The position numbers were made by a program, and so were the translations under genes. Below the pieces are notes generated by a model. It was not told the origin of the DNA. It did not search any database and saw only the letters and a program-made list of their open reading frames with translations. From Xestospongia bergquistia (taxonomy: Eukaryota > Porifera > Demospongiae > Haplosclerida > Petrosiidae), in assembly GCA_963965975.1 (NCBI GenBank), contig OZ014411.1, forward strand, positions 9,673,501 through 9,737,500: a DNA stretch of 64,000 bases. The letters are read 5' to 3'. Position 1 is the first letter of the stretch, and every line of letters starts with the position of its first letter. This document shows positions 11,676 through 61,151 of this stretch, piece after piece.

Positions 11676-12700
11676 TTGTTTCAAATTCAAATAAGTCAAT
11701 TGTTACTTAACAACTTTAATTTGCTGTTCTTTCTCTTATACCAAAATTATATAATTCTCTACTCTATAGAAACTGAAGTTCTCTAGGTGCCAAGTGACAA
11801 TGCCTACATTTATTAATAGTATATACAAAGAAAAATATAAAAGCATGGTAAAGTTTGACATGTGGAGGACATGCCCAGGAAAGATGGCTATTGCATTTAA
11901 TCTATTACATTATCATGATTTCAAATACATGCTAAAGCTGGACAGTCGGGCCATTTCATTTTTGAGAATATACCTGCCAGTATCGAGTCTTTCACAGCTA
12001 GTAAGAATTTAATGATACTATAGTGTTGTAGCAAAACCCTGTTACTATTAGCACAGAGGTAGTATCCTTTTTGAAACAGTTGACTCTACAAGACTACAAC
12101 TGATTATCAATAACTAAAAATAAATTTTACCTTTTGCTATAACTAAACTAAAACTAAAGCACCTTATGTCTACTAAACAACACTAATTGTCTCCATAAGT
12201 ATAAAACATGACATAAGACACCTTGGAGATTTTCCTATCTCTCTTACATACATATTCAAGATATTCATGCACATACCTTCAAAAGAAACATTTTCCATAA
12301 TAAAATAATTAACTATGACAATGTTCCCATTACTTTAAAGGAAAACTAGAATAGCCATCTGATAGAGTTGAGGCTAATTAACTCACATATTATTGATGTC
12401 TGCTTTCTTATTTGAGATATACCCAAATCAAGTGCTAAAGTTATTGATAGTGTTCTCAAGTATGACAAAACAAACTGGAGAACTTATCAGACTTGTAGTT
12501 GTGGAGAAACCATAATTTTTATGTTAAGGTCTTTTCACTTTTGTTGCCATTAGAACCAAAAGTGCAATAGCAAGTTACAGCTTTCATATTAATAGCCTAG
12601 GGCTTTCCCCATATGACTTTTTAGTAATATTTTAGCCCAAAAAGGGCTTTTGTTGTGATGGTGACCAGCACTGACAAGATTACAGCAGGATAACACCATA
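11676..12700. other. Non-coding gap before the transposase
   Basis: No supported gene. A 72-codon frame at 11794-12012 has no recognisable domain or splice context. The transposon's left end probably lies in 12500-12730, but no terminal inverted repeat could be paired by eye. Confidence 0.5.
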
Positions 12701-12724
12701 CACCGCCAAAATTTTCAAGGAAGA

Positions 12725-14516: not shown

Positions 14517-14565
14517 GTAAGTATATACATAGATACTGCAACTTACACATTCTTACTTTGATTAG

Positions 14566-14927: not shown

Positions 14928-14976
14928 GTTAGTTTGTCTGTTATCCTCTATATTATTCATTTGTATAATAATCAAG

Positions 14977-16016
14977 CCTCTAGTATTCAATCTCGGACAC
15001 ATTCTCGGTCTCAAAAGTCAACCACTGTCAAGTCTCCAATAGGTCAGTTTGTCTGTTATCTTTTCTATTATTCATTGTTATAATAATCTAGCCTCTAGTA
15101 CTAGGTTAGGGACATGTTCTCAATCTCAAAAGGCAACCAATGTCAAGTCTCCAATAGGTCAGTTTGTCTGTTATCTTTTTTGTTATTCATTGTTATAATA
15201 ATCTAGCCTCTAGTACTCAATCTCAGACATGTTCTCGGTCTCAAAAGGCAACCTATGTCAAATCTCCGATAGGTCAGTTTGCCTGTTATCTTTTCTATTA
15301 TTCATTCATGATTGTTATAATAATCCACCCTCTAGTACTATGTTAAGGACATGATCTCATTCTCAAAAGGCAACCACTGTTGAGTCTCCAATAAGTCAGT
15401 TTGTCTGTTATCTTTTATATTATTCGTTGTTTAAATAATCTAGTCTATGGTACTCAGTGTCAGACACATTCTCAGTCTCAAAAGGCAACCTCTGTCAAGT
15501 CTCTAATAGGTCAGTTTGTCTGTTTTCTTCTATATTATTCATTGTTATAATCTAGCCTCTGGTACTCAGTCTCGGACACATTTTAATAATCTAGCCTCTG
15601 GTACTCAGTCTCTGACATGTTCTCAGTCTCAAAAGGCAACCTCTGTCAAGTCTCCAATAGGTCAGTTTATCTGTTTTCTTCTATATTATTCATTGTTATA
15701 ATCTAGCCTCTGGTACTCAGTCTCAGACACATTCTCTTTCTCAAAAGACAACCACTGTCAAGTCTCCAATAGGTCAGCTTGTCTGTTATTATTTGTATTA
15801 TTATTGGTATAATTTAGCCTCCAGAACTATGTTATGGACACGTTGTGGGTCTCAAAAGGCAACCAATGTCAAGTCTTCAATAAGTCAGTTTATCTGTTAT
15901 CTTTTATATTATTTATAGTTATGATAATCTAGCCCCTAGTACTCAGTCTCTGACACATTCTCAGTCTCAGACACGTTCTCAATGTCAAAAGAAAACCATT
16001 GTTTAGTCTCCAATAG
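14977..16016 (+). repeat. Tandem array of 66-bp symmetric exons (22-residue Ser/Gln repeat)
   Basis: Units of about 114 bp, each a 66-nt exon plus a ~48-nt intron. Exons: 14977-15042, 15092-15157, 15207-15272, 15444-15509, 15595-15660, 15707-15772, 15818-15883 and a longer 15933-16016 (84 nt). The usual boundaries are AATCTAG|CCTCT and CCAATAG|GTCAGT. Each exon is phase 1-1 and encodes roughly ASSTQSQTHSRSQKATxVKS followed by PI. The unit at about 15328 has lost its acceptor (CCAC in place of CTAG) and contains a TGA. The unit at 15556 is truncated. The last exon contains an in-frame TAG. Because units are symmetric, skipping damaged ones preserves the frame. Expansion at the DNA level is clear because introns are as conserved as exons. 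Confidence 0.82.
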
Positions 16017-23171: not shown

Positions 23172-23478
23172 GTAAACAAGTAATTAACATTGAACATGAT
23201 ATTCATAGATCGTGTGACTATTAATAAGTATATATGAATCCATAGTGACTATGAATATATAATAATATATATGATATGATAAATGAACTAGATATTGTAA
23301 TATGGACACCCTCGGTTACTATGAATATGTACTAAGATCAATGATGAGATAATAGCTGTTACTTACATTATTATATTTACAATACACAGCATTATATAGT
23401 ATATTGTAATGTGTGTTCTAAATTATTAATACTAATACTACATGTAATAACTGACCTCCATTGATAATACTTCTGTTA
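23172..23478. repeat. Direct repeat copy 2 (about 300 bp)
   Basis: Partner of the copy at 22017-22309, 1.15 kb away in the same orientation. It ends about 20 bases before the candidate exon acceptor at 23500. Confidence 0.85.
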
Positions 23479-24224
23479 TAAAATAATATTTTATTGACAG
23501 GGCTTCCTTTGTTGTTAGTGGACATATTAGTGGGTGTGTCTACCCTCTTAACTCAATAGTCTTAGCTGAAAGACCGAGAGAATTAAAAAATGAATGGATA
23601 AATAGAGAATATGATGATATGAGATCTGTAGAAAGAAATATAAGAGAACATTAAAATGTAGGAATTATTTGTCAACTAATATATATGTATATTACATGTA
23701 TAACTACAAACTAATAGTTATGAAGTTATCTTCAGTGATATTACTGTTATAATGATCATTAAATGTTAATTGATGATCTCTTTAGCCTTTTTTATCAACC
23801 CTAACAACAAATACAAATAAATTAACTTGTATTCTCTCTCTCTTTTCCACTTTCCCAGTTCTAAAATATACAGTCTATATACTCCATTGTTAAATATCCA
23901 TGTTTATGTATACCAATAACACATATATGTCTGATCTCCTTATAAGGTCTAAATTTGTACTGTATACAATGTATCTGTGCTATAAATAGTAACATGTTAT
24001 TAATAGTAACACTTTGACAGTTATATTAATAATTAGATCTAATGCTAGTGTTACCTTTATTTAGCTAAAGCTTCATAACTTTGCAAATGTCTATAATTAT
24101 GTTATATTTTAAAGTTAAAACCTTCTATAATGCCTTTATTATTATTATCTTTTAGTTAAAGTTTCTACATCATTAAATGAACACGAAGTCATTACAATAA
24201 TTTATAAGGTCATTATTCATCATC

Positions 24225-24545
24225 TAAATGTGTCTTTACAATATAATAGGAAGTAAGTGTGATATATAATGGTTTAAATTCTCTCTATATATAATTGTTA
24301 TTGTAGGAAAAATTTATACCTATGTCTTTATGTCTTTTACAATATAATAGTTGGTAAGTGTGACATAACAATGTATAAATTCTAACTGTATTGAATGCAA
24401 AGTTTACATTTTGTTTACTCTATTATTGTTTGTTTCCATACTAATGGTGCTATTATTACTCATATTTAAATGTGTCCTTTACAATATAATAAGATCTAAG
24501 TGTGATATAACATAGTTTGAATTCTATATATAATTGTTATAATAG
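24225..24545 (+). repeat. Outlying copies of the ~136-bp splice-site satellite
   Basis: Two clear copies of ACAATATAATAG-NNN-GTAAGTGTGA and one mutated copy (ATAATAAGATCTAAGTGTGA) occur near 24245, 24350 and 24488. They lie about 19 kb upstream of the large arrays inside the ankyrin gene. Confidence 0.7.
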
Positions 24546-25564
24546 GAATAATTTATGTCTCTCTCTTTCTCTCTATCACTCATTCAATTGTCACTTTACT
24601 GGTGGTAATCAAAAGAAAATCATTAAGTGAAATATCAATAGCAGGTAATTTTAGATCTAACACTTTAAGAGACTCAGTTTCTCCGTGTCCCAGTCAAACA
24701 TCATATATAAAGTTGTTGGCATACACTCATCAGAAACTACATACTTTAATAATATTCATTGCTTTGGACAGAGAACACGAACAGAGGAATAGTAAGGCAG
24801 TGGGTAGAGTCATGTTATTAGCAAACAACATTGTAATACATGGATATAAAACAATAAAGTCAATGATTTGTTTAATGTAATGAAAGGTAGACTATCTGTC
24901 CATTAATATGACTTATGCATCCATTTAGATATTAATCCATTAATTTTATTAAACTAGTCATCCATTCATTGTTAGCATTGTCATCATTCTAACTCCATAG
25001 CAACAACACTCAGAAAATAACTAGTGATAACATTAACTATATAAACCTATATCAACACTTTCATTGTTTGATTTCCTCTCATTAACTTCATTGTTTAATT
25101 TCCTATTTTGTATTTTCCAACTAACATTATACTAAACTAAATTTTTGTGATAGATGTATTTATATATATTACAGAATATAGTATACAATACCAAAGATTA
25201 TACACTATCCTTAAAATGACAGTATAATTCTACAGTAATAACTTTGTTTTTAACATCAGCCTTAACATTTTAAAAAACATATCGTAACATCCAAAAAATA
25301 ATTGAGAGAATATTGTATTCACGGATTTGGTAAAATCAACTTTACATATTATTTTTGGGATATAAAAACAAAGATAAAGGTGTTAATATCATTATAATAT
25401 CAATCAGTACTAAATTTGGAAGAATGATGGACCACAAGAAGTTGCTAAAATTCCACTCGTCATATGATTTTCTTCAGAATATTCAGTTATCTATAACAGA
25501 AAGACACATAAACATTAATAGATCGTGTATAAATGTACATGTAAAATGTAGTCAAGTAAACAAA

Positions 25565-42800: not shown

Positions 42801-45800
42801 TAATTAAAGTGGACAATTAAAAGTCAATATATTTTATGAAGTCTGTGTTTGTACTGTTAGTAGTCTAATTTGACTGTTAATAGTTTGTTTGTTATTACAA
42901 TAGAATGGATGGGCAGCTCTTCATTATGCAAGTTTTGAAGGACATACAAAGATTGTTGAAGTATTAGTCAACCATAATGCTGACCTGAACATTGTTATTG
43001 AGGTAATTCAAATGACGAGAATGAGTATGTTTACTGTAATCTTTAAAGTGTGTAAATAAATGTATAGTAATTATTAAATAAGAAATAACATAGTCATTGT
43101 TGTGATATAAGGAAATAAGACAAAGAAACAAACAAGTCCAAAGTAGTAATATCAGTATGGACATTCCTATATAATAGAACACCAAACTACTTAAACATAT
43201 TGGCATATGTAAATTGTACCATGTTGTGGTCTGTCAGAGAATTTGATCATTTTTGTAGGAAAATGCAGATATCCATGATATAATGTAGTATAAATTCTAA
43301 GTGTATTTTAATTTAATATTTTTTACTCTATTGATTTCATTCCATTTTTATGTTGTTGTGTTTACTTGTGATCTGAATGTTTCCATTACAATATAATAGG
43401 GAGTAAATGTGATATAATGTAGTATAAATTTTAAATGTATTTCAATGTAATGCTTTTTTTACTCTATTGATTTCATTCCATTTTTATGTTGCTGTGATTA
43501 CTTATGATCTTATTGTTTCCATTACAATATAATAGGAAGTAAGTGTGATATAATGTAGTATAAATTCTAAATGTATTTCAATATAACGCTTTTTTTACTC
43601 TATTAATTTTATTGCATTTTTATGTTGTTGTGTTTACTTGTGATATTAATGTTTTCATTGCAATATAATAGTTTGTAAGTGTGATATAATGTAGTATAAA
43701 TTCTTAAAGTATTTCAATGTAATGCTTTTTTATTCTATTGATTTTATTCCATTGTTTATGTTGCTGTGTTTACTTGTTATCTCAATGTTCCCATTACAAT
43801 ATAATAGGGAGTAAGTGTGATATAATGTAGTATAAATTCTAAATGTATATCAAAGTTATGCTTCTTTTACTCTATTGATTTTATTCCATTTTTATGTTGC
43901 TGTGATTAGTTGTAATCTGAATGTTCCCCTTGCAGTATAATAGTTTATAAGTGTGTGATAATGAAGTATAAATTTTAAGTGTATTTCAATGTAATGTTTT
44001 TTTAACCCTATTAACTGTATTCCATATTTATGTTGCTGTGTTTACTTGTGATCTGAATGTTTCCATTACAATATAATAGAGAGTAAGTGTGATATAATGT
44101 ACTATAAATTCTAAATGTATTTCAATGCAATCCTTTTTTACTCTATTAATTTTATTCCATTTTTATGTTGCTGTGTTTACTTGTGATCTTAATGTTTCCA
44201 TTACAATATAATAGCTAGTAAGTGTGATATAATGTAGTGTAAATTCTAAGTGTATTTCAATGATATGCTTTTTTTACTCTATTGATTTTATTCATTTTTA
44301 ATGTTTCTGTGATTACTTTTTTGATCTGAAATTCTTTCTTTACAATGTAATAGTTGTTAATGTTTTAGTTAATATTTGTACATATGTTTTACTATTATAG
44401 TAAAAGAAGGTATTTCTTGAATTTAGTATATCTAATAAGGATTTAATTTTTTTCAAGTCTTTTCTTTGAAGGTCTGAGTTCATTTTATTTGTATGGGATT
44501 CTAGCTCATTCTTTACAATGTCATGAATATATAATATTTATTATGATCATATAATACTGTTTATTGCCAACTTTATATTTATAATAGTTTGACTATAAAA
44601 TATGTCTATACAAAATGTGTCATTGTTGTAAGAATTATTGAGAATAGTTTGTTTAGTGTAAGAGTGATTGTTGTGATAATGTTGTCTTAGTTTGTAATGT
44701 TACTAGAATAGTGATGTAATACATATAGAACAGTGTTTCTATAGATAATATAGACCTGTTATGATATGTTGTCTTGGTACATATTGTTGTGTTATTATAA
44801 TATATTTAGGAGGAATCTACTCCGGTCATGTTAGCAGCAAAGAAGGGACACAAAGATGTTGTTTTGATTTTAACACAGAAAGGAGCCAATTTAGACCTTG
44901 TTAACGGAGTAAGTGTTTATGTATATACAACAAGTCCTTTATAGATAAAGATAAAATGGAAGTTCTTTTTCTTTAAAGAATGTTGATGATAGTCTTGTAA
45001 TTGTAGTTAACGTTGAATGGTTGTCTTTAATAATATGATCAATAAGATGAATATTGGAAGGAGAACAGGATACAAAGTCCACATTATAATATTAGGCAAA
45101 AAGTGTACTTGTTTTACAATGTGTACAGTGATTAATTTTCCTGATTATTTAACACAAATGGACAGATAAAGATGACATTTTTAATGACTTTTTAATGATT
45201 AGTTCTAGTGCACAAGTAAACATAGTGATGAAGATCATGATGTGAAGCATGACTTATTTATCTTTGAAGTATCTTTTAAAATTCTCTAGAAATAGAAGTG
45301 TATTTTACTTACATGTACCTATTATGGAAGTACAGATGTAATGATAGTTGATAAAATGAAGAGCAACAAGTTATATTCTTGTCAGTTGTTTGTTTTTTAA
45401 AATTCAAAAAATACTCATTAGTAGTACATGTAGTTTACGTCATACATGTATAACATGAGCTACGTATAGACAATGTAGAAGAATAGTATATTGTATCATG
45501 ACAATTAAAGTGGACAATTAAAAGTCAATATATTATATGAAGTCTGTGTTTGTACTGTTAGTAGTCTAATTTGACTGTTAATAGTTTGTTTATTATTACA
45601 ATAGAATGGATGGGCGGCCCTTCATTATGCAAGTTTTGAAGGACATACAAAGATTGTTGAAGTATTAGTCAACCATAATGCTGACCTGAACATTGTTACT
45701 AAGGTAATTAAAATGATGAGAATGAGTATGATTTATTGTAATCTTTAAAGTGTGTAAATAAATGTATAGTAATTATTAAATAAGAAATAACATAGTCATT

Positions 45801-48800
45801 GTTGTGATAAAAGGAAATAACACAAAGAAACAAACAAGTCCAAAGTAGTAATATCAGTATGGACATTCCTATATAATAGAACACCAAACTACTTAAACAT
45901 ATTGGCATATGTAAATTGTACCATGCTATGGTCTCTCAGATGATTTGATCAGTTTTGTAGGACTCACTTTTTTAAACTGCAAATACCCGCAATTGTAATT
46001 ATATTTTTTAACATGACATCATAGCATTATATAATGATGTTTTTTTTAAATTTTATTTGAGACTCAGAAGCTAGCTTTGTTTGTAAACTAAAAAAACATT
46101 TGTGGTTAATTAAACTAGTTTTTGTTCCTGGTTTTTAATTATGTATACTATAACTAAAATGTTGTATATCTAATAAAATCAGATACTGTAAATGTTAAAA
46201 AAGTGATACAATAAACATCAAAAGAAGTAACTAATAGTGTGACATTTTCCATAATGAAAATGTAATAGGAGATAAGTTTGATATAATGTAGAAAATTCTA
46301 AGTAAATTCCATGGCAAAGTTTTCATTTTTTTTACACTCTTGTTTTCCTTCCATATTTATGATCCTGTGAATACTTTTGACCTAAATGTGTCCATATAAT
46401 AGAGGGTTAGTGTGCTAAAATGTATAAATTCTAAGTGTATTTCAATGTATTGCTCTCATTTTATTTACTCTATTGATTTTCTTCCATTTTTATGTTCCTG
46501 TAATTACTTGTAATCTGAATGTGTCCTTATTAATGTAATAGGTGGTAAGTATAAAAGTATATTCTAAACATATTTCAATGAAATCATTTTGTTTATTTTG
46601 TTTATTGATATTCTTTCTTTTTTATGTTGTTGTGATTACTTGTGATCTCAATGTATCCTTACAAAAATAGTCAGTAAGTGTGATACAATGTAGTATAAAT
46701 TCTAAGTGTATTTTGATGTACTCTTTTTATTTCATTTCATTTATTGTATTGTATTTTCTTTGCATAATTAATGAAAATATGTAATTACTTTTGATGTGAA
46801 TGTGTCCACTACAATGTAATAGCCAGTAAGTGTGATATGATGTAGAATAAATTCTAAGTGTATTTTAATGCAATGTGTTGTTTTTTACTTTATTTTCTTC
46901 CTTCCATATTTATATTGTTCTGATTACTTGTGATCTGAATGTGTCCTTTACAATATAATAGAAAGTGAGTGTGATATAATGTAGTATAAATTGTAAATGT
47001 ATATCAATGTAATACTTTTTTTACTCTATTGATTTCTTCATTATTTATATTGCTGCAATTAATTGTGACCTTAATGTGTCCATTACAATATAATAGAGGG
47101 TAAGTGTGATATAATATAGTATAAATTTTAAGTGTATTTTAATGCAATTTTTTATTTCATTTGCTCTGTTCTTTTTCTTTCTGTATTTATGATGCTGTGA
47201 TTACTTGTGATCTGAATGTGCCCTTTTCAATATAATAGATGGTAAGTATGATAAAAATAGTATAAATTCTAAGTGTAATTTAATGCACTTTTTTTCATTT
47301 GCTCTATTGTTTTTCTTTTTATATTTATGATGTTGTGATTACTTGTGATCTGAATATGTTCTTTTCAATAGGACGTAAGTGTGATAAAAAGTAGTGTAAA
47401 TTCTATTATTATTTCAAAGGGAATTCTTTTGTTATTTATTCTATTGATTTTCTTCCATTTTTATGTTATTATGATTACTTGTGATCTCAATGTATCTTTT
47501 ACAATATAATAGTTTGTAAGTGTGATATAATGTAGTATAAATTCTAAGTGTATTCCAATGTAATGTTTTCATGTTCTCACTCTATTGTTTTTCTTCAATA
47601 TTTGTGATGTCGTGATTACTTGTGATCTGAATATGTCCTTTTTAATATAATAGGAGGTAAGTGTGATATAATATAGTACAAATTCTAAGTGTATTCCAAT
47701 GCAATGTTTTCATTCTATTTACTCTATTTGTTTTCCTTCCATTTTTATGTTGCTGTGTTTACTTGTGATCTTAATGTGTCCTTTATAATATAATAGTTTG
47801 TAAGTGTGATATGTTAATTATAATACTAAGTATATTTCAATGTAATACGTACATTTTATTTATTTATCTTATTGTTTGTTTGTTTCCATATTTATGATGC
47901 TGTTATTACTTGCTATCTGAATGCTTCCTTTTCAATATAATAGTTGATAAGTGTTATAGTTAACATCTGTACAGGTGTTTTGCTATTATGGTAAAGAAGG
48001 TATTCCTTGAATTTATTTTATCTAAAATATGAATTTAAGTCTTTTTTGAATGTGTGAGTTCATTGTGTTTGTATGGTATTCTAGTTCTTTCTCTATAATA
48101 CCAAGAATTAATTACTTTTATTCTGATCATATACTACTATCTATTGTCTAATTTATTTTTGTAATGGTTTGCCTATAAAATGTGTCTATGCAAAATGTGC
48201 CATTGTTGTAAGAATTATTGAGAGTAGTTTGTTTAGTGTAAGAGTGATTGTTGTGATGAAGATAATATCTTAATTTGTAATATTACTAGTATAGTGATGT
48301 AATACATATAGAACAGTGTTTCTGTAGATAATATGCATCTGTTATGATATGTTTTCTTGGTACATATTGTTGTGTTATTATAATATATTTAGGAGGGATC
48401 TACTCCAATCATGTTAGCAGCAAAGAAGGGACACAAAGATGTTGTTTTGATTTTAACACAGAAAGGAGCCAATTTAGACATTGTTAACAGAGTAAGTGTT
48501 TATGTACATGCCACAAGTCCTTTATAGCTAATGATAGAATGAATTTTTTTTTCCTTAAGGAAAGTAATTAAATATGATAATCTTGTAGTTGTAATAACAC
48601 TGTTAACGTTGATATGATTGTCTTTAATAATATGCTCAATAAGATGAATATTGGAAGGAGAACAGGATACAAAGTCCACATTATAATATTAGGCAAAAAG
48701 TGTACTTGTTTTACAATGTGTACAGTAATTAATTTTCCTGATTATTTAACACAAATCGACAGATAAAGATGACATTTTTAATGACTTTTTAATGATTAGT

Positions 48801-51800
48801 TCTAGTGCACAAGTAAACATAGTGATGAAGATCATGATGTGAAGCATGACTTATTTATCTTTGAAGTATCTTTTAAAATTCTCTAGAAATAGAAGTGTAT
48901 TTTACTTACATGTACCTATTATGGAAGTACAGACGTAATGATAGTTGATAACATGAAGAGCAACAAGTTATATTCTTGTCAAGTGCTGAGTTGTTTGTTT
49001 TTTAAAATTCAAAAAATACTCATTAGTAATACATGTAGCTCACGTTATACATGTATAACATGAGCTACATATAGACAATGTAGAAGAATAGTATATTGTA
49101 TCATGACAATTAAAGTGGACAATTAAAAGTCAATATATTTTATGAAGTTTGTGTTTGTACTGTTAGTAGTCTAATTTGACTGTTAATAGTTTGTTATTAC
49201 AATAGAATGGATGGGCGGCCCTTCATTTTGCAAGTTTTGAAGGACATACAAAGATTGTTGAAGTATTAGTCAACCATAATGCTGACCTAAACATTGTTAC
49301 TGAGGTAATTCAAATGACGAGAATGAGTATGTTTACTGTAATCTTTAAAGTGTGTAAATAAATGTATTGTAATTATTAAATAAGAAATAACATAGTCATT
49401 GTTGTGATGTAAGAAAATAACACAAATAAACAAACAAGTCCAAAGTAGTAATATCAGTATAGACATTCCTATATAATAGAACACCAAACTACTTAAACAT
49501 ATTGGCATATGTAAATTGTACCATGCTGGGGTCTGTACAAAATATGATCAGTTTTGTAGAACTTTTCAAAATGTATATACCCACAATTTTAATCATATCA
49601 TTTTACATGGTTTCATAACAATATATGATGTATTTTTTAAAATTTTAGCTAAGAGTTGAAAGATATTTTTGTAAGCTAAAGAAAAAGTTGTGGCTAATGG
49701 AAACTCTTTTTCTTCCTGCCTTTTCGTTATGTTTACTATGACTAAAATGTTGTATCTTATAGATATCATATAGATTATAGATAGACAATAATGTTTAAAT
49801 TAATAAAATCAGATACTGTAAATATTAAAGTAGTAATAAAATGTAAATGTAGTAATGAGACATAAAAGCTAAGAGTATAAAAATTTTGTTTACTTTTAAT
49901 AATTTTTTCCTTCCATAATAATAATGTAATAAGTGATAAGTTTGATATAATGTAGTATATATTCTAAATGAATTTCAATGTACTCTTTCTTTATATTTAC
50001 TCTATTGTTTTTTCTTTTAAAATTAATAATGCTGTGATTACTACTTGTGATCTGAATGTGTCCATTACGATATAATAGCCAGTAAGTGTGATATAATGTA
50101 GTATACATTCTAAATGTATTTTAATATAATGCTTTTTTTACTCTATTAATTTTATTCCATTTTTATGTTGCTGTGTTTACTTGTGATCTTAATGTTTCCA
50201 TTACAATATAATAGCAAGTAAGTGTGATATAATGTAGTATAAATTCTAAATGTATTTTAATGTAATGCTTTTTTTACTCTATTGATTTCATTCCATTTTT
50301 ATGTTGCTGGGATGACTTGTGATCTTAATGTTCCCATTACAATATAATAGCAAGTAAGTGTGATATAATGTTGTATAAATTTTAAGTGCATTTCAATGTA
50401 CTCTTTTCATTTTAAATGCTCCTTTTTTTTCTTTCATATTGATAACATGTGATTACTTGTGATGTTATGTGTCATTTACAATGTAACAGAGAGTAAGTAT
50501 GATATAATGTAATATTAATTCTAATTGTATTCTAACACAATCTTTCATTTTATTTACTCTAATGTTTTCTTCTTCCATATTTATGATGCTATGACTACTT
50601 GTGATCTAAATGTGTCCTTTACAATAGGGAGTAAGTGTGATATAGTGTAATATAAATTCTAAGTGTATTTTAATGCAATGTTTTCACTTTATGTACTCTA
50701 TTGATTTCTTCATTTTTATATTGTTGCAATTAATTGTGACCTTAATGTGTCCATTACAATATAACAGAGGGTAAGTGTGATATAACATGGTATAAAGTGT
50801 ATTTTAATGCAATTTTTTCATTTTATTTACTCTATTATTTCCTTTCATATATATGATGCTGTGATTACTTGTGATCTGAATGTGTCCTTTTCAATATAAT
50901 AGTTGGTAAGTGTCATATAATGTGGTAAATTTTAAGCGTAATTCAATGTAATGCTTTCATTTTTTACCTAATTCGTTTTCCTTCCATTTTTATGTTGTGT
51001 GATCACTTGTGATGTGAATATGTCCTTTAAAATATAATAGTTGGTAAGTGTGATAAATGTAGTGTGAATTCTAAGTGTATTTCAATGCAATTATTTATTT
51101 ACTTTATTTGTTTTCCATCCATTTTTATATTGCTATGATTACTTGTGATCTGAATGTGTCCTTTTACAATATAATAGTTTGTAAGTGTGATATAATGTAG
51201 TATGAATTCTAATGTATTTCTATCCAATGCTTTTATTTTATTTATTCTACTCATTTTCCTTCCATTGTTATGTTGCTGTGATTACTTGTGGTCTGAATGT
51301 GTCCTTTACAATGTAATAGTTTGTAAGTGTGATATAATGTAGTATAAATTCTAAGATTATTCCAGTGCAATGTTTTATGTTATGTACTCTATTGTTTTTC
51401 CTTCCATATTAATGATGCTGTAACTACTCGTGATATTAATGTAAAATTACAATGTAATAGGAGGTAAGTGTGATATAGTGTAGTATAAATTCTAAATGTA
51501 TTTTAGTGCAATGTTTAATTTTATGTATACTAATTTTTTTCTTTCCTTTTTTATGATACTGTGATTATTTGTGAACTGAATGTTTTCTTTACAATATAAT
51601 AGATGGTAAGTGTGATAAATATAGCATAAATTCTAAATGTATTTCAATGCAATGTTTCATTTTGTGTACTCTATTGTTTTTCTTTTCTCATTTATGTGTC
51701 TGTGATTACTTGTGATTTGAATGTGTCCTTTACAATATAATAGTTGGTAAGTGTGATATAATTTAGAATAAATTTTATTTCAATGCAATGTTTTCATTTT

Positions 51801-54800
51801 ATTTACCCTATTTCTTTTTCTTCCACTTTTATGTTGCTATGATTACTTGTGATCATAATGTGTCCTTTACAATATAATAGTTTGTAAGTGTGATATAATG
51901 TAGTATTAATTCTAATGTATTTCTATCCAATGCTTTCATTTTATTTATTCTACTCATTTCCTTCCATTGTTATGTTGCTGTGATTACTTGTGATCTGAAT
52001 GTGTCCTTTACAATGTAATAGTTTGTAAGTGTGATATAATGTAGTATAAATTCCAAATTTAATCCAATGCAATGTTTTATCTTATGTACTCTATTGTTTT
52101 TTCTTCCATATTAACGATGCTGTGACTACTTGTGACGTGAATGTGAAATTACATTATAATAGAATGTAAGTGTGATATAATGTACTATAATCCTAAGTGT
52201 AATTTAATGCAAAACTTTTATTTAATTTACTTTATTTGTTTTGCTTCCATTTTATGATTCTGTGATTACTTGTGATCTTAATGTTTCCATTACAATATAA
52301 TAGTTTGTAAGTGTGATATAATGTAGTATAAATTCTAAGTGTATTTCAAAGTAATGCTTTCTTTTATTTACTATTATTGTGTTTCCCTCTATATGTATGA
52401 TTCTGTGATTACTTGTGATCTGAATGTGTGTTTTATAATAATTATAACAGTCAGTAAGTGTGATTTAATTAAACAAAAATTCTTGGTGTATTTCAATCCA
52501 ACATTTTAATTTTAATATTTTATTGTTTGTTTGTTTCCATATTTATGATGCTGTAATTTCTTTTAATCTGAATGCTTCCTTTATATCATAATAGTTGGTA
52601 AGTGTATTAGTTAACAATAGTATATTTGTTTTGCTATTAAGGTAAAGTAAGTATTTCTTGAATTTATTCTATCATATATAGGAATAAGTATTAACTTTTG
52701 TTTAGTCTTTTCTTTGAAGGTGTGAGTTCATCGTGTTTGTATGGTATCCTAGCTCATTCTCTATAATACCAAGAATTAATTACTTTTATTCTGATCATAT
52801 ACTACTATCTATTGTCTAATTTATATATATATATATATAATGGTTTGCCTATAAAATGTGTCTATGCAAAATGTGCCATTGTTGTAAGAATTATTGAGAG
52901 TAGTTTGTTTAGTGTAAGAGTGATTGTTGTGATGAAGATAATGTTGTCTTAATTCGTAATGTTACTAATATAGCGATGTAATACATATGGAACGGTGTTT
53001 CTATAGATAATATGCATCTGTTATGATATGTTGTCTTGGTAACAATATTTGATTATTATAATATATTTAGGAGGGATCTACTCCAATCATGTTAGCAGCA
53101 GAGAAGGGCCACAAAGATGTTGTTTTGATTTTAACACAGAAAGGAGCCAATTTAGACATTGTTAACAGAGTAAGTGTTTATGTACATGCTACAAGTCCTT
53201 TATAGCTAATGATAGAATGAATTTCTTTTTCTTTAAGGAAAGTTATTAATTATGATAATGTTGTAGTTGTAATAACACTGTTAACGTTGATATGGTTGTC
53301 TTTAATAATATGCTCAATAAGATGAATATTGGAAGGAGAATAGAATACAAAGTCCAAATGATAATATTAAGCAAAAAGTGTACTTGTTTTACAATGTGTA
53401 CAATGATTAATTTTCCTGCTTAATTAACACAAATTGATAGATAAATATGATATGTTTTTATGACTTTTTTAATGATCAGTTCAGGTCACATGTAAACATA
53501 GTGATGAATATCGTAATATGAAGCATGACTTGTTTAGCTTTGAAATGTTTTCAAAATTCTCAACAATGATCCCCTGAAAATAGAACTGTATTGTACTTGT
53601 AAGTACCTCCTATTGGATATTAACTGATGCTAATATTAATATTAATTGATGCTATTTTAAGAGTGTGGCAATGATCAGAATGATGAGGGTTTTTTATTTA
53701 TATTGTAACTATTAAATGTTATGGCACTTAAATGTGTGACTAATGTATGTGGGGATATTCATGTTGCCATTCCTACAGTGGTCATGTTTGAAATGCTACT
53801 ATTCCTACAGAGTCTACTGTGGTTATTATGTAGGAATTTTCATTGTGCCATTCATTCTGTTGACTTATCTCTCTTGTGATACAACTATCACTACATTTCA
53901 TTATTTCTTATTAATTTTTATGTACTTGTGCATTTGTAATCATCAATATATAGCAAGTACACAAAATGAAGTGTCCTTGCCCAAGACACAATTTGGTAGT
54001 TTTTCTACAACTTCCATTTATATTTTCAAGAAGATATTAAATTAACGTGACTTGAAATAATTGTGACCCATTATAAATGTACCTAAATGAGGTTAATATC
54101 TATCACTAATGTGAATTTATTAGGAGTTGTCTTTATCATCATATCGTTTCATGTTATAGTAATGTTATATTAGTTATATATTGTTGCAAACTTATGTGAC
54201 AGTGAATTTTTGTTATAATATTTTAAAATTTTTTTTCACTTTTTATTAAATATTTGTAAAGTAAATTACATCCTCATACTGCCATCATTTACTCAAGTAT
54301 ATTCTTGCCACTGACATAATATTCATATACTATTCATCGACTCACTAAAATTAATGATTATTGACTTTATACTAATAGTAGCTAAGTTTTATTATTACAT
54401 GTACATGTATATTTTGATTTGTTGTTATACAGGTTGGCAAGACCTTTCTCTATATATCATGTTATGAAGGTCATGATGAGATTGTTCAAGTCCTTCTAGA
54501 TGCTGGTATGAAAGTGAATGTTCCAGACAAGGTTAGTGTAATATTAGTATATAAAAGTAATTGTAGTTTTCTATAATACTTAATACCAACTTACAATATA
54601 CACATGACTTATCAAGCGGATATACAACAGTAGTCAAAACAAGTTCACGTATTGTCTTCGTACATGTTTTAACAAATAAAGTAGGAAATGTTTCATTAAT
54701 AATTATATGAACCAATCAGAGATAGTCTTTGCGGCATTTGTTCATTGTTTTGGAAATACATCAACACCTCACATTTGTATCATGTATTATATAAGCCCTT

Positions 54801-57800
54801 CAATTTTGTCATAACAGATACTCTAGAATTGCTATAGCTTCAGCAAAAGAGAAATAGCAAGACATTCTGTTGAGCTTTCATTGTTTTTTTACAATCAATC
54901 ACCAAAGGAAATGACTTGATATAAAACTTTGTGTTCACAGATATTTTTTCAAACTCAGTGAAACATTTGTCTTTAAATAGTTTAAACATTGTCTGAATTT
55001 TCAAGCTTGAAAATTAATTCTGCTAAAGCTATGTTACAAAGATTTTATTTTTGAGAGAATTTTGATATAATAATTGATCACAATGAGCAGTATCTTAATA
55101 GAAATATGTGTGTATGTCTCTTTGATGAATTCATTTGTTTGTAAGACATCATGTTCAAAATGACCAATATGCTTTTTAACTTATGCACACATGTGCACTC
55201 TTCTTTCATACGCATATTTCAAATGCTATGTAGTCTTTAATGATAGTAAAACTTCAGTTTGTATTTCTGGAACCACTCCTCACTCCTGAACAAATAACTC
55301 ATTATATACTATATGAGCATGCTATTAGAATTGTGATGTGCCATTCTGACCAAGTTTTGGTTTGTGATGCTCGTATTATGCTGCCACCTTATTCAACACA
55401 CATTGTTATTTTCTTTGCGGATATCAGCTATTTCAACTTTGTCTCACATCTAGTTGTTTGTCCTATTCTTTACCTTCATGTAAGGTCTCTTTCTTTAGCA
55501 TAGACATGTATAATGCTTCTAAGCATCTAGGTTAAAGTGATAAAAACCTACTGTTATTAAATATTTAATGGCATTAATTAAATGTATTCCTGCCTGGAGG
55601 TTGTTATGGGCACAAGTATCCTTGAAAATGTTTTTTTTTGTCTGTCTACAACACCCTCTAGATATTGAGGCATGCATTACTTAGTAAGTATTCTTCTCAT
55701 CTTTATGTCTACGTTTTACATAATTTGACTCATGTCATGCTTTTCTCATATTATTTAGTATGGACGTACAGCACTTCATGCAGCTTATTGGACTAAAAAT
55801 AATGCCATTATGAAGATGTTAGTTCATGCTAATGCCATTAATGTAGAAGCTGTGCAGGCTGTAAGTCATAAGTTAATACATATCTATATATATGCTCTAC
55901 ATCTATCTTACTCTATGTTTTTAATGGTTGTTATATGTACATCACTTTTGTGATCTTAGCATTTACATGTACATGTATGTTGATATAAATCAAACAAGTG
56001 TAGTCAGATATAGACAAGTTTATGAGTAGTAGTATAAATATTTTAGCAAATAAATAGTTTTGGTGTAGCATAGTAATTGCAAGTTCATTTATGTATGAGT
56101 ACTCTATAAGTATATAATATGTACATCTTACAATATTGAAAAATAATTTTTGATTCTTTATTAATATAAAAATTAAAACATTTTTTCTTTACTATTTAGG
56201 ACACTTTACTTTTAGAATCTTCAAGAAAAGGACATGTGGAAGGTATTAGAAATGCCCTGTCCAAGAGAGCATATGTTAACATTGGAAACAATGTATGCCA
56301 ATTTGTATAATACAATTATGAGGCAAATACAGATGCTATGACATAAAACAAGTCCAAAGGTCTAAAGACCAGAGAGTTATTTATGTCATTGCATACTGTA
56401 TGTGTAATGCAGTACATTACTGGTTGGGTTATAATGTGTTTATGGCTTAATACAATAAAATTATCACAACCTTGTATCTTATTAAGTGTGGTTTGTTGAC
56501 ACTTTGAACTTCTTGGTATAATGTCACAATTTAAAATAATATCATCAAAAACAAATTTGTTATTCATTTCGGCTTAATTAGTACTATTTTTAAACATTTT
56601 ACTAATGATAGTCAATAGCTAAAAAAGAAACAAGCTAGATTTTGTTCAAACACTTTTAACTAATTTGTACTATAAGTTTCATTTATTGTGTATTCATGTT
56701 CTTGTTTTTATGTATATATAGGATGGCCAAACTGCTTTGTACATAGCATCTGAGAAAGGCAATAATGAATGTGTTCAGCTTCTTCTTGAATTCAATGCTA
56801 ACCCTAACATTGCTGATCAAGTAAGTTGTGACGATCATTTCATTGTTTATTTAGCTAATAAGACTAATATATAACATATGCTTTGTCTTAAAATGTTCTA
56901 ACTAGTTTATTCCAAAATTATCATAGAAAGTAACTGCACAATCATCTAACCACCAAGCAACATTTTGTTACAATTAAGAAATGTTTCTAAAGTTTGAAAA
57001 TTATATCAATGAATGTAAACTATTAAAGAGGAGTCAGTGAGATTCACTGTATGAGCTGTGAAAGTGTATTTGTGTTAAATAAAGGATCTTGAAAGCTAAA
57101 ATATAAGAATGAGTTGACATAATTATTAAAAAATCAATATTCTCAAAACTTTCTTATTGTTAGTTTGCCACACAAATCGCTAGCTAGCTAAAACACACAC
57201 CAAATCCTATTGTTACATATGAGGTAAATGCTAGTAAAAGATAAAGTAATCATAGCAGTATGGTATATTTTGAAATATATGGAATATCGCTTACTAATAT
57301 TTTTCTTAGGATGGTAACACACCCCTTCATGGTGCTTGTAAGGGTTGTCATGGTGATGTTGTGAAATCTCTTTTGTCATCAGGAAAGATTGACCCAATGG
57401 CTAAGAACAGAAATAATGAAACAGCCATGGCGCTTGTTTATTATAACGACGAAAATCGCTTCGCTATTTTAAAGATGTTTGAGCGATTTGAGCAATGTCG
57501 AAAGGATTTCCCTGTAGAATCCTACAGCAAAGTTTTTTTCTGTGGTGATACTGGTGCAGGTAAAAGTTCACTTGCAGCAGTCATTATGGAACGAGCTAAG
57601 AAACCACCTAACTACAAGTTTGATACATCTGATCCTATTCCAGTAGAACTGCTAACTACTGGGATTAATGCACATACCATTTCAAGTCATGAAGTGGGAA
57701 ATATTGTCCTTTATGATCTCGCAGGTCATAAGGAGTATTATAGCAGTCATGCAGCAATTATGGAAAATCTTATGCTAAGCACACCTGCTGTTTTTACAAT

Positions 57801-60800
57801 ACTTTTTAAGATGACTGACAATCTAGATGTCATTAAAGGTGATTTATACTACTGGTTTAATTTTATCAAGAATGCCAATCTACAATTATCAAGTTCAAGG
57901 CCATCTCAAATACTCATCATTGGAAGTCGACTTGATGAGATCACTGATAGTTATGATGAAGTTTCTAAAGTAGTTGCTGAAGTTGCTGAAAAAGCTGATC
58001 ATTCACAAGAATATGTTGGGTTCCTACCTATGGAATGTCATCGTCCTGGTGGAAAAGGTGTTGAAGAGTTTGTGGTTAAACTTTCTTATAGCTGCAAAGC
58101 TGTGCTTGATCGATCAGACAAAGTTAGTTTCTACTGCCATGTTCAATTCTCCTTCTTACAATTGCTTCGAAATAAAGAAAATATTATAGCCATTAGTGTG
58201 ATGGAGTTATATGCTGAATTACGAAAGCGTGACGACCCTTCTCTTCCTTCTGAAAGATCAGTGTTATTGGAATTCCTTTCCACTTTAAGTGACAAGGGTC
58301 TCATCTTATTCCTTAAAAATGAAGATGATGCTCAAAGTTGGATAGTTATTGATAGAGCTGCCCTTCTCACTGAAGTCAATGGTGTTCTATTTGCTCCTAA
58401 GGCAATTGAACATGCCTATCAAAATATTGCTAGTAATACTGGTATTGTGCCTAAGTCTATTCTGCAAAAATATTTTTCACCACACAATATTGATATGTTA
58501 ATTGGGTTCCTTAGAAATCTTCAGTTCTGTCATGTTTTAAAATCAAATACATTGGAAAAGTTCGAAACCAATATATCAGCTTCAAATCTTCTGCCATCAG
58601 GTGAGCTCTTATTTTTTCCATCTCTCATTTGTACTGAGCCACCAACAGATATTGATATAGAAAATGGGTTGGGATGGTGTCTTTGGTGTCCTGATCCTAA
58701 CCAATTCCTCTCAACACGATTCCTTCACCTTCTTCTTTTTGGCCTTTCTTACAGTTTTTGTCTGCAATGTTGCTATAAACCTGGTGAAATTTCTGATTTA
58801 AATGAAGAAATCCAAATGTTAGCTCGGTGTTGTCATGTATGGACAAATGGTATTTATTGGGAGAATAAGGATGAAGTCAAAGTAATTGTTGAAGTAACAG
58901 AGTGCTATCGTTGTGTTACAGTAGTTACATCAATGAATTCGAATGACATCACGAAAAGCCGCAATGTTTTCAATAATGTTATTAAGAGCATATTAACCTT
59001 GAGTAGGATGCACTCATTTAAATGTGAGGAATACCTCATCGCTCCTAGTGATATAGCAAAAGCTCGTAGTCTTCTTGTCAAAAAACGCACACTTTATAAC
59101 ATAAAAGATGTTGCTCGATCAATGCTTGCAAAATGTAATGTTAGTGATGCCAATAACACAAAGAAGGTGGGCATTGAAGAAATTGTGGAAGTCCATGATC
59201 CCTTTCTTTGCATTGCTCCTTCGGTGACAAAGGCGCTTTTCAGTGCTGAGTTGCTACTTCGAAAGGACCACCTTCAACACATAGTGGATAACTGTTCTTA
59301 TTTCACATCATCACACTCATCATTAGGTCACATGGAAGTAAAGGAACGTTGTAGTCAACTCAGTGTGTTTGCTGGACGTAATCCTTTGGTAAGTATAAAT
59401 TAGTTTAAATATGCATGTACAAGAAATCTTTTGGCATTTTGTCATACATCATACTTGTACCACATTAATTTTGTACTGTATCATACTTACACCACTCTGT
59501 ATTGTATCACAATTAATTTTGCTACAGGACCTTGCTTATCCTCCATTAGATGAAAATGAAATAGAAACTATATCTGAGCAACTCTTCTTAAAAGGTTAGT
59601 ATATAGTGTTGGTGATTCATAGTATTGGTTACAGCCAACTTTTTGTGGTGTATTCCAGATACAGCATGCTATGTAGTAAAGCAAACCTGAGGATTGTTAT
59701 GTCACAGTTTATACTATATATGTAATACAGTATGATGTAGGTTGGGCCATAACATGCTTAAGGCTTGATACTATAGAAATTCAAAGCCCAGCATCTGTTG
59801 ACCATAGTACTATATCTGGATTCAAATGCCACTTTATGTAGTCTGAGAACCTCATCAGCACTTTGACATTCTATTTTATTATGTCACTACTTGTTTTATT
59901 AAATAATATTTAATATGTAGATCTGTATCTAAAATGTGAGATGACACGCCTACTCTAAATGAGTATGTAAACTAGTTTTACATACCAATTACAGAATTAA
60001 TTTACACATGCAATTCTCTGTCTCCAAAATATTGATTAAATGTAAACTAAATGTTCAGTAGACAAGGTATATGTTATTTTTATGCAATGTATGGATTTTA
60101 TAAATTTTTAGACTATTTATGTTGTTGTCAATCCATTGCAAACTATCCCTCCTCTTTATTTTATTGCTTTCTATTTATGAAACACACTAATAGCAGTCAT
60201 AAAAGTTAAATGCTGTTTGTACATATGTACATATATTGTCAGTTGAATTACCTATTTTAGGCTAAACAACACGTCCATACTGACATAAATCATACACTCT
60301 GATATTGTTATGTATCGTTATAAATTACAGCAATGCTCTGTATATATTCTAAGTACATATCATTTAGTTAATTTATAATTTAAATAAAATAGAATGAATG
60401 AAAAGCAGTAAAATGCTGGACATTTGTCTCTGTATATAGTGACTATAAATTACATTGATTATTAGTTTGTAATTCCACCAATAAGAACTTGTTTAAAAAT
60501 TATTACCAAATAGACAACATGTTTTGGTTATTCTTATAATGGCAGTCTCGTGCTAAGCCACATTTGTACATGGCAACAGTTTATTGCTAGCATACTGTTA
60601 CATTAGGTTAAACAAAAATATACATGTTTATAGAATAGAATGGCTCCATGCTAGTATTGTCTGTCAACATAATTGCTTGTGAATAAATTATATGTTGACA
60701 CACCCACATTTATTAGCTGCTACTGTCTGACCATCTATATATGTATATGACAATTATGTCATCTTATTGTTTGATTATGTTATCTTAGTGTTTAATTAAA

Positions 60801-61151
60801 AAAAATTTTTAATGTCAATACAAACATGTCCTTTTATTATTTAATTTCATATTAGGTAATATGGCTGAAGGAGCATCTACTATACCAGATCAGGTCTTGG
60901 ATCAACAACCTCCAATTCTAGAAATAGCTACACATGCTGAAACTGCAGAGTGGAAACATTTAGGTGTGCAACTAGAATTGCGTGATGTGGCCTTAGCTGG
61001 ATGTCGTAACTGTATCGAGACGTATCAGTTATGGATTATGGAGAAAGCTGAAAATGCAACTCGAAGGAAATTAATATCCGCTTTAAGAGCAATTAGACAA
61101 AATAATGTAGCATATAGCTATGAGCAACATTTGAAAACAGCTTTTTTGTGA
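39853..61151 (+). CDS. Ankyrin - ROC GTPase - COR-like - DEATH protein (DAPK-type, no kinase)
   Basis: Modelled as 15 exons: 39853-39891, 42199-42291, 42904-43002, 44810-44908, 45605-45703, 48393-48491, 49206-49304, 53071-53169, 54433-54531, 55759-55860, 56200-56292, 56722-56820, 57310-59388, 59528-59594, 60856-61151. All introns are GT-AG and phase 0, except phase 1 after 59594. Together they give 1186 residues. The start MATRLAKMTKKQK is the first ATG after an acceptor-like TTTAG and may not be the only start. Eleven ankyrin repeats follow, one per exon, plus part of a twelfth (DGNTPLHGACKG) opening the large exon. Next come ROC and COR-like regions (57310-59388) and a C-terminal DEATH domain (about residues 1105-1186, W at 1121 in EWKHLGVQLEL). 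DAPK1 shares the ankyrin-ROC-COR-DEATH order; no kinase domain was found 5' of the ankyrins. It is probably a cytosolic scaffold or GTPase of death-fold signalling. Introns of 1.9-3.8 kb hold satellites. A decayed copy of its 3' end follows. Confidence 0.88.
40000..42198. other. First intron of the ankyrin-ROC-DEATH gene (continuing from 39892)
   Basis: AT-rich intron with no supported coding on either strand. The minus-strand open frame at 39924-40286 has no family support and is treated as chance. Confidence 0.6.
42650..44908 (+). repeat. Ankyrin exon-pair module, copy A
   Basis: Contains exons 42904-43002 (NGWAALHYASFEGHTKIVEV) and 44810-44908 (STPVMLAAKKGHKDVVLILT) with flanking introns. 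It is homologous to copies B (about 45050-48491) and C (about 48650-53169). Exon differences from copy B are about four bases in 99 for the first exon. It is the most diverged of the three. Confidence 0.85.
43256..44395 (+). repeat. ~136-bp satellite, array 1 (about 8 units)
   Basis: Head-to-tail units of about 135-140 bp inside the intron after exon 3. The core is GTAAGTGTGATATAATGTAG then TATAAATTCTAA, a T-rich segment, TTACTTGTGATCTGAATG and TACAATATAATAG. Unit junctions at about 43398, 43532, 43672, 43808, 43940, 44081 and 44214 read ATAATAG-NNN-GTAAGTG or a one-base variant. Confidence 0.9.
45050..48491 (+). repeat. Ankyrin exon-pair module, copy B
   Basis: Contains exons 45605-45703 and 48393-48491. 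The intron segment 45050-45605 is almost identical to 48645-49205 of copy C, including the run GAATATTGGAAGGAGAACAG, which shows recent tandem duplication of B and C. Confidence 0.88.
46230..47960 (+). repeat. ~136-bp satellite, array 2 (about 13 units)
   Basis: Same unit as array 1, in the equivalent intron of copy B. The trinucleotide between TAG and GTAAGT varies: GTG, TCA, CCA, AAA, AGG, ATG, GAC, TTT, GAG, TTT. Some units have mutated donors such as GTGAGT or ATAAGT. Confidence 0.9.
48645..53169 (+). repeat. Ankyrin exon-pair module, copy C
   Basis: Contains exons 49206-49304 and 53071-53169. It differs from copy B by about three bases in each 99-nt exon. The module encodes two further ankyrin repeats in frame, so the protein gained repeats by duplication. 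Confidence 0.88.
49890..52630 (+). repeat. ~136-bp satellite, array 3 (about 20 units)
   Basis: Longest array, in the equivalent intron of copy C. Junction trinucleotides include CCA, CAA, CAA, AGA, GGA, AGG, TTG, TTG, TTT, TTT, GAG, ATG, TTG, TTT, TTT, AAT, TTT, TCA and TTG, always three bases between TAG or CAG and the GTAAG donor. Confidence 0.9.
57310..59388 (+). CDS. Exon 13: last ankyrin repeat, ROC GTPase and COR-like region
   Basis: Single 2079-nt exon encoding residues 374-1066 of the ankyrin-ROC-DEATH protein. After a partial ankyrin repeat and a linker, the G domain shows G1 GDTGAGKS (452-459), G3 DLAGH (509-513) and a G4 equivalent GSRLDE (578-583) in place of NKxD. Such a replacement is usual in ROC domains. 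The P-loop Lys and Ser are intact, so nucleotide binding is plausible. From about residue 640 a COR-like region follows (LYAELRKRDD, W-V-I-D-R-A-A-L-L-T-E-V-N-G-V, GIVPKSILQKYF, ELLFFPSLI). The exon is intact with no stop. Annotating from the GTG at 57361 would miss the ankyrin start of the exon. Confidence 0.9.
59595..60855. other. Intron between exons 14 and 15
   Basis: Phase-1 intron. Its first part (59600-60060) is duplicated at about 62386-62800. It contains a dispersed repeat (GATTGTTATGTCACAG.. GTATGATGTAGGTTGG, 59695-59790) that is also present near 62480-62580 and, more diverged, near 56385-56470. No coding was seen. Confidence 0.7.

Follow-up and report, generated by a model that had tools for sequence, protein, structure and literature searches.

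Tandem arrays of intron-like units with putative in-frame three-nucleotide micro-exons between ankyrin exons of a sponge genome

Neuronal 3-nt micro-exons are single-codon exons, as the putative exons described here would be. Dscam-type genes likewise carry tandem exon banks within a single gene, although in that case the exons are large and used in a mutually exclusive manner. We are not aware of single-codon exons arrayed by the dozen, and no report of such tandem arrays was found in the accessible parts of the open-licence literature. According to the available portion of one account, schistosome micro-exon genes (MEGs) contain series of tiny exons, with lengths usually divisible by three and introns between them; these exons measure 6-81 bp (3-81 bp according to the abstract), mostly 15 bp, encode parts of secreted proteins and undergo alternative splicing that is tied to protein variation (PMC10526429). 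The arrays analysed here would share with MEGs the series of tiny exons in multiples of three, but differ in the 3-nt length of the putative exons, in the near-identical tandem introns and in the ankyrin/GTPase host family; furthermore, whereas MEG coding sequences consist mostly of tiny exons, the coding exons in this case comprise 99-nt ankyrin (ANK) exons together with a GTPase exon of 2 kb. In recursive splicing, the ratchet-point consensus, as given in an excerpt of PMC5126111, is (Y)nNCAG|GTAAGT, with zero bases between acceptor and donor. Introners, in the part of the source available, insert into many genes genome-wide, and some families are accompanied by target-site or inverted repeats (PMC9860276).

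The window, that is, the whole 64-kb stretch of DNA that was analysed, contains ANK exons of two types, B and A, which alternate, and a large downstream exon (Table 1). The joined exons match the Pfam Ank profile (PF00023) in six stretches and are assigned to ankyrin repeats; the best stretch, residues 98-130, corresponds exactly to the second B exon and fills profile positions 1-33. The GTPase region of the large exon scores 23.3 bits against Roc, under the Pfam threshold of 27, and 22.3 bits against MMR_HSR1, over the threshold of 21.9. We infer that this exon belongs to the same gene as the ANK exons. Relatives of the GTPase exon number 588 among 8,000 scored candidates, the best 112 being 74-83% identical, and Death-domain exons adjoin genes of the ankyrin/GTPase family. 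All exons listed, 21 distinct ones of type B and 20 of type A, are 99 nt long with GT directly after them, and AG precedes all 39 B or A exons with those bases in view.

Table 1. Positions of the ankyrin and GTPase exons, the putative micro-exon arrays and the stray unit junctions in the window
Feature	Position	Strand	Remarks
Two stray unit junctions (GAA, TTG)	24243..24360	+	within dispersed ~1.7-kb repeat
ANK exon type B, first copy	42904..43002	+	33 codons, phase 0
Micro-exon array 1 (putative)	43393..44224	+	in intron 43003-44809; 7 AG-NNN junctions, 6 with GT
ANK exon type A, first copy	44810..44908	+	33 codons, phase 0
ANK exon type B, second copy	45605..45703	+	best Pfam Ank stretch
Micro-exon array 2 (putative)	46262..47953	+	in intron 45704-48392; AG and GT intact at 11 of 13 junctions
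ANK exon type A, second copy	48393..48491	+	
ANK exon type B, third copy	49206..49304	+	
Micro-exon array 3 (putative)	50072..52604	+	in intron 49305-53070; 19 junctions, AG and GT
ANK exon type A, third copy	53071..53169	+	
Large downstream exon	57310..59400	+	one ANK repeat and GTPase region

Three introns of this gene are occupied by tandem units of the form GT...AG, each ~133 nt long, with three variable bases between successive units. Tandem Repeats Finder places the repeats at 43276-44353, 46273-47963 and 49923-52605, with a base period of 136-141, and unit spacing, when counted within limits of 100-170, ranges between 110 and 158. The exact motif ATAATAG-NNN-GTAAGTG has 23 matches in the window, 21 of which fall at 43529-52604; the other two, at 24243 and 24344, lie in a dispersed repeat with another copy at C1:8.71 Mb. 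When mismatches are tolerated, AG and GT are both intact at 36 junctions (6, 11 and 19 in the three introns), and the donor GT has become AT at three more (43937, 46262 and 47937); a degenerate end unit near 44350 comes in addition to this list. The triplets followed by GT in array 1 are GGA, GAA, TTT, GGA, AGA and CTA, whereas the intact junctions of array 2 span 46396 to 47790. Three apparent junctions at 43042, 44400 and 49344 proved false; they stem from a looser triplet list of the window, which was not used. Overall, the ~40 units counted in the sequence-only reading hold up (36 intact plus at least three that have lost the donor), but its statement that every unit carries splice signals is slightly too strong.

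In the 146-Mb genome, the exact-flank pattern has 1,979 matches (1,319 + 660), compared with a single match (1 + 0) for the reversed pattern, which rules out a chance origin; a longer form of the pattern is absent from viral contigs and has four scattered matches in prokaryote contigs. The three-base spacing noticed in the window is borne out genome-wide: with the same flanks, 1,979 matches have a spacer of three bases, against 17 with spacers of 0-2 bases (reversed control, 23) and 43 with 4-9 (control, 37), so that only the three-base spacer exceeds the control. Within the sampled family loci, the exceptions are two spacers of two bases and one of four, versus 367 of three. The fixed length carries less weight than it seems to, as positions adjoining the triplet likewise show few indels. 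The same counts bear on recursive removal of the long intron in steps, one of four explanations put forward earlier. The arrays resemble recursively spliced introns in that an internal acceptor is closely followed by a donor within a long intron; however, because GT is not adjacent to AG, the mRNA would retain three bases, and the exact flanks abut directly at only three places. The classical, zero-length form of this explanation therefore fails.

Across the genome, arrays of 1-38 units were found in 22 of 22 B-to-A rows with both exons in view (21 introns, given that loci L056 and L057 represent one intron) and in none of the 14 corresponding A-to-B rows. The loci analysed were mostly selected through the core pattern, and units with an intact core served to train the profile. 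Unit matches lie on the strand of the gene in 648 cases and on the opposite strand in 12, with overlapping loci counted repeatedly. This distribution is relevant to the suggestion that the unit is an introner-like mobile element which generates a 3-bp target-site duplication and piles up in tandem. The unit indeed has the form of a complete GT-AG intron, near-identical units of this kind have been amplified in this genome as in those with introners, and target-site repeats of 3-9 bp are described for some published families in the part of the source available (PMC9860276). Yet we do not observe the dispersed insertion expected of introners, which some families combine with target-site duplications that match: the copies are tandem and, where exons are in view, restricted to one intron type, and stray unit copies are confined to one dispersed repeat. 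The dispersed copies searched show internal palindromes only, with no paired inverted ends, and no target-site signature was found, the triplets on either side of a unit being unassociated in L068-L070, the three youngest arrays that were compared (V = 0.17, p = 0.33). Such an origin fits poorly and appears very improbable.

The signals that flank the very short putative exon on both sides, AG and GT, are conserved. With the core masked, 532 junctions were identified, of which 466 retain both signals; after the pattern-picked seeds are dropped, the figure is 430 of 496. The two lowest divergences among the 23 G columns of the unit alignment (mean 31%) belong to the acceptor G (3.4%) and the donor G (5.9%). 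If the four bases diverged like columns of the same base, 35% of junctions would be expected to be intact, compared with 89% observed, in a set of 629 hits not thinned by genome position. The AG is preceded at a distance of ~22 nt by a branch-like CTnAA motif, in which n is free (53% diverged) and the other four positions are 6-23% diverged. By contrast, few positions of the unit vary as much as those of the triplet, which have entropies of 1.87, 1.78 and 1.35 bits per position, versus a mean divergence of 7% in the rest of the unit (170 aligned units). The alignment thus supports both the variable centre between conserved flanks and the constraint on the flanks that had been proposed from the window. 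In arrays ~96% identical elsewhere, GAA, TTT and CGA, interspersed, make up 82 of 84 centres, and the GC content of the triplets (42%) is above that of the unit (24%).

These observations weigh on the possibility that the arrays are an inert satellite, which derives from an intron whose core resembled splice sites, propagated together with the pairs of ankyrin exons, is homogenised by recombination and is not spliced. The arrays are tandem, homogenised, recombining and carried along with duplicated exons, and pieces of the unit also occur in dispersed repeats, all as such a satellite would have it; a neutral unit, however, should not show its lowest-diverging G columns exactly at the acceptor and the donor, nor does a satellite that merely resembles splice sites predict the absence of stop codons. 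Neutrality is also at odds with the flank tree, in which 222 triplet changes include two stop gains, both at sites deliberately searched for, compared with 28.4 expected, and none of 67 single-base steps leads to a stop (6.7 expected). On balance, we consider the inert satellite unlikely, and less well fitting than in-frame micro-exons.

At exact-flank sites, sense stops account for 2 of 1,979 triplets (TAA 1, TGA 1, TAG 0), compared with 118 TGG (by subtraction) and 318 V-AG, so that, with phase-0 host exons, the three-base centres are frame-neutral and almost free of stops. With pattern-picked sites dropped, 429 junctions contain one sense stop versus 48.3 expected, whereas antisense stops are not depleted in the same set (23 versus 23.3), but in contiguous regions alone antisense stops are short as well (12 versus 23.0). 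A shifted-frame control is not clean either: TAG read one base on (NTA plus the donor G) falls below expectation as well, with 18 versus 56.5, which indicates that column-frequency expectations are rough and that uneven triplet ancestry matters, enough to disturb simple stop expectations and to that extent in keeping with an inert satellite. None of the 69 broken-core junctions carries a stop (three are unreadable), although recently broken copies need not show any. An apparent enrichment of tryptophan was discarded as mostly an artefact of TGG-based locus picking, TGG falling from 35 to 8 without the seeds.

Stop avoidance might alternatively reflect splice-site competition only. Together with the G of the acceptor, TAA, TGA and TAG would form the donors GTAAGT, GTGAGT and GTAGGT, making translation irrelevant. 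In line with this explanation, which is compatible with the other readings, TAY triplets (GTATGT/GTACGT) are not stops but are also rare, 6 of 1,979 exact-flank sites, and part of the depletion is therefore possibly avoidance of a new GT donor. However, TGG, which would create GTGGGT, is common, gains of TAG and TAY in the tree stand at 0:4 against 35:10 for NAG and NAY (p = 0.005), and TAR and TAY counts at 2:13 against 148:31 for other NAR and NAY. As a sole cause, donor competition is thus improbable, whereas it or uneven triplet ancestry may explain part of the depletion. In a related scenario, the spliceosome recognises the sites, but they act as decoys or stepping stones within a long intron; the triplets are retained only by accident and have no role in the protein, and selection does no more than purge those that create a stop or a competing donor. 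This scenario covers the splice-site constraint, the stop depletion and the scarcity of TAN triplets, and synonymous single-base steps in the flank tree (10 versus 14.2 expected) suggest that residue identity may not matter. It leaves unexplained why triplet diversity in the ~96%-identical arrays far exceeds that of the unit, and why the triplets are richer in GC; we regard it as a minority possibility.

Taken together, position, phase, spacer length, constraint on the splice sites and depletion of stops are best accommodated if the spliceosome uses the triplets as in-frame 3-nt micro-exons between two ankyrin repeats, the reading that, of the four explanations proposed earlier, we favour with moderate confidence on sequence grounds. 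Each array would then be a series of spliceosomal units, in which a ~133-nt intron is followed by a micro-exon and the next intron, with splicing proceeding along the array one intron after another. Because the flanking ankyrin exons are in phase 0, every micro-exon used would add one codon, exactly at the boundary of two ankyrin repeats, and we infer both splicing at the junctions and the presence of the added residues in the protein. Intron-by-intron splicing would allow 1 to ~38 single residues, or subsets of them after skipping, to be inserted at this boundary. If so, one codon, the smallest possible coding unit, has been amplified as a satellite with the frame kept in about two thousand or more exact-flank copies, which would connect the evolution of satellites with the gain of introns and the diversification of proteins, and would provide a natural test of how the spliceosome handles dozens of successive 3-nt exons. 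Should the residues turn out to be functionless, conserved splice signals around stop-avoiding centres would still provide rare evidence that selection acts within a satellite.

The tip between ankyrin repeats is a common ligand contact in ankyrin proteins, and in designed ankyrin repeat proteins, variable residues near the inter-repeat turns determine binding; those proteins are engineered and their residues substituted, whereas here residues would be inserted. We tentatively suggest, as a speculative extension, that banks of micro-exons diversify a receptor by varying this tip residue by residue through splicing. The resulting repertoire would be combinatorial, in an expanded ankyrin/GTPase family with Death-domain exons alongside.

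A query of joined B and A exon DNA yielded no retrocopy joining the two in 40 scored places of 692 candidates, all 40 being single exons. A search for transcript-like proteins returned 722 proteins and was swamped by general ankyrins, with none of the best 120 exceeding 42% identity. A further protein search gave P0241 and P0242, labelled Gigantopelta aegis. In P0242, an automatically predicted relative, exon B is joined to exon A with zero extra residues, which, like the lack of a retrocopy among the places scored, counts against the micro-exon reading; two of its exons are near-identical to those of this genome (33 of 33 and 32 of 33 residues), a likeness that is probably due to contamination.

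The host genome comprises 146 Mb in 21 contigs; the window (C1:9673501-9737500, 30% GC) contains exons for ankyrin repeats, a Roc-like GTPase, Death domains and transposases (HTH_psq, DDE_1), a set that suggests an animal. Alternating ankyrin exons of two types, B and A, are followed by further ankyrin exons and a long GTPase-region exon, and we infer that these are joined into a single gene. The best Pfam Ank stretch matches a B exon end to end, with the profile covered from 1 to 33. All 21 B and 20 A exons listed have the same length and are followed by GT, and AG precedes each of the 39 for which the upstream bases are visible. Among 8,000 scored candidates, 588 are relatives of the GTPase exon, the best 112 being 74-83% identical. 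Death-domain exons lie on both sides of this gene; transposase-like open frames, with HTH_psq over its cut-off and DDE_1 slightly under, are presumably pogo/Tigger-like.

Features of the window and of two loci elsewhere in the genome
Feature	Position	Length	Sequence
Ankyrin exon type B		99 nt	NGWAALHYASFEGHTKIVEVLVNHNADLNIVTE
Ankyrin exon type A		99 nt	EGSTPIMLAAKKGHKDVVLILTQKGANLDIVNR
Putative single ankyrin/GTPase gene	window 42.2-59.4 kb		
Death-domain exons, upstream	window 6552-6998		
Death-domain exons, downstream	window 60813-61148		
Transposase-like open frames	window 12665-14517		
Second tandem exon-intron satellite	window 14928-15932		
Dispersed repeat	window 23255-24970	~1.7 kb	
L073, array of nearly uniform triplets	C6:4724643		
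L076, other branch of the array family	C5:3730001-3738000		

Each of the three B-to-A introns in the window contains one tandem array of ~133-nt GT...AG units with 3-base spacers, in agreement with the sequence-only reading. The introns carry 6, 11 and 19 AG-NNN-GT junctions, none of the 36 triplets being a stop, and three more junctions have an AT donor. Where both exons are in view, arrays of 1-38 units occupy 22 of 22 B-to-A rows (21 introns, L056 and L057 being one intron) and 0 of 14 A-to-B rows. The exact flanks, ATAATAG-NNN-GTAAGTG, occur 1,979 times genome-wide versus once for the reversed pattern; among the matches listed, copies elsewhere fall at 9.6-9.9 and 12.8-27.4 Mb of the same contig (C1) and on C5, C7 and C8. 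Stepwise recursive splicing had been proposed for these junctions, but an AG-NNN-GT junction, if used, necessarily leaves three bases in the mRNA, making it a one-codon micro-exon and ruling out a ratchet point. Because the flanking exon boundaries are in phase 0, a triplet spliced in as an exon would add one codon exactly at the ankyrin repeat boundary, which we take to be the tip of the ankyrin beta-hairpin. We lean towards such in-frame micro-exons. One automatically predicted relative, P0242, skips the array; it and P0241 are labelled Gigantopelta aegis, and two P0242 exons match host-genome exons at 33/33 and 32/33 residues. These matches probably reflect contamination of the Gigantopelta aegis assembly.

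Constraint was assessed with a profile in which AG-NNN-GT was masked, run against the examined loci, with duplicates dropped by genome position. AG and GT are both intact in 466 of 532 core-spanning junctions, and in 430 of 496 once sites selected through the core pattern are left out (loci picked by repeat unit being retained). As the sequence-only reading had anticipated for the flanks, the acceptor G (3.4%) and donor G (5.9%) are the least diverged of 23 consensus-G columns (mean 31%), although the profile was trained on intact-core contexts and most loci were selected around intact cores. A CTnAA motif ~22 nt upstream of the junction has fixed bases diverged by 6-23% and n by 53%, as a branch site would; the branch-site consensus is yUnAy.

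The variable centre noted earlier also holds: in the masked-core profile the three columns of the triplet stand 1st, 8th and 5th of 155 for divergence, and in the three youngest arrays tested (L068-L070), ~96% identical outside the centre, GAA, TTT and CGA are intermixed and account for 82 of 84 centres. A tree of 452 distinct contexts, based on the flanks only, requires 222 triplet changes versus 351 when the triplets are shuffled, and 155 of the 222 alter two or three bases. The association of triplets with variants of the flanks is partial (V up to 0.52), and units therefore recombine. Synonymous steps number 10 versus 14.2 expected, and residue identity thus looks free or mildly diversified. 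The boldest reading, drawn from the expanded family, the placement of the arrays between ankyrin repeats and the diverse centre, is that the triplets would constitute a recognition repertoire.

Stops are scarce. Exact-flank triplets genome-wide include TAA once, TGA once and TAG never, versus 318 V-AG and 118 TGG (by subtraction). With pattern-picked sites removed, one stop remains in 429 (a TAG with inexact flanks, C1 at 20.37 Mb) versus 48.3 expected from column frequencies, whereas antisense stops number 23 versus 23.3; in contiguous regions alone, the values are 1 versus 28.5 (sense) and 12 versus 23.0 (antisense). The flank tree has 2 stop gains in 222 changes (28.4 expected), no single-base step to a stop in 67 (6.7 expected, p=0.0009) and one inferred step away from TAA. 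Some arrays lack an ankyrin exon in the stretch examined; one of them, L073 (3 kb examined), has nearly all TCA triplets, with TAA and TTA once each.

Several results weigh against explaining this by translation alone: TAY is scarce too (6 exact-flank), T directly after the acceptor G always creating GT; broken junctions contain 0 stops in 69; and TAG one base on (NTA plus donor G) occurs 18 times versus 56.5, so that expectations from column frequencies are rough. For translation, tree gains of TAG:TAY are 0:4 versus 35:10 for other NAG:NAY (p=0.005), while GTAGGT, which TAG creates, is expected from the donor consensus to be at most as good a donor as GTATGT, and TGG is common though it likewise makes GT with the acceptor G. 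Taken together, splice-position constraint and stop scarcity in the genomic sequence suggest that the junctions are spliced at least at times.

With the same flanks, only a three-base centre exceeds the control genome-wide, while unit spacing ranges from 110 to 158. Given three exceptions within the family in the loci sampled and the rarity of indels in neighbouring columns as well, the fixed length is supporting rather than decisive evidence.

The window's second satellite, of about eight units, combines a 66-nt exon (22 codons, S/Q/K-rich; one frame open in 8/8 listed) with a 45-49-nt GT-AG intron; a 105-nt variant of the exon occurs once, as does a degenerate unit. It shows that exon-intron units get amplified in this genome, in which very short introns may be in use. 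The dispersed repeat, which shares 91% identity with its copy at C1:8.71 Mb, bears two or three ankyrin-array unit junctions, one broken, and may have given rise to the arrays or derive from them. In L076 and L034, which belong to another branch of this family, the period is ~637 bp, and each period has one good junction match, with degenerate junctions between.
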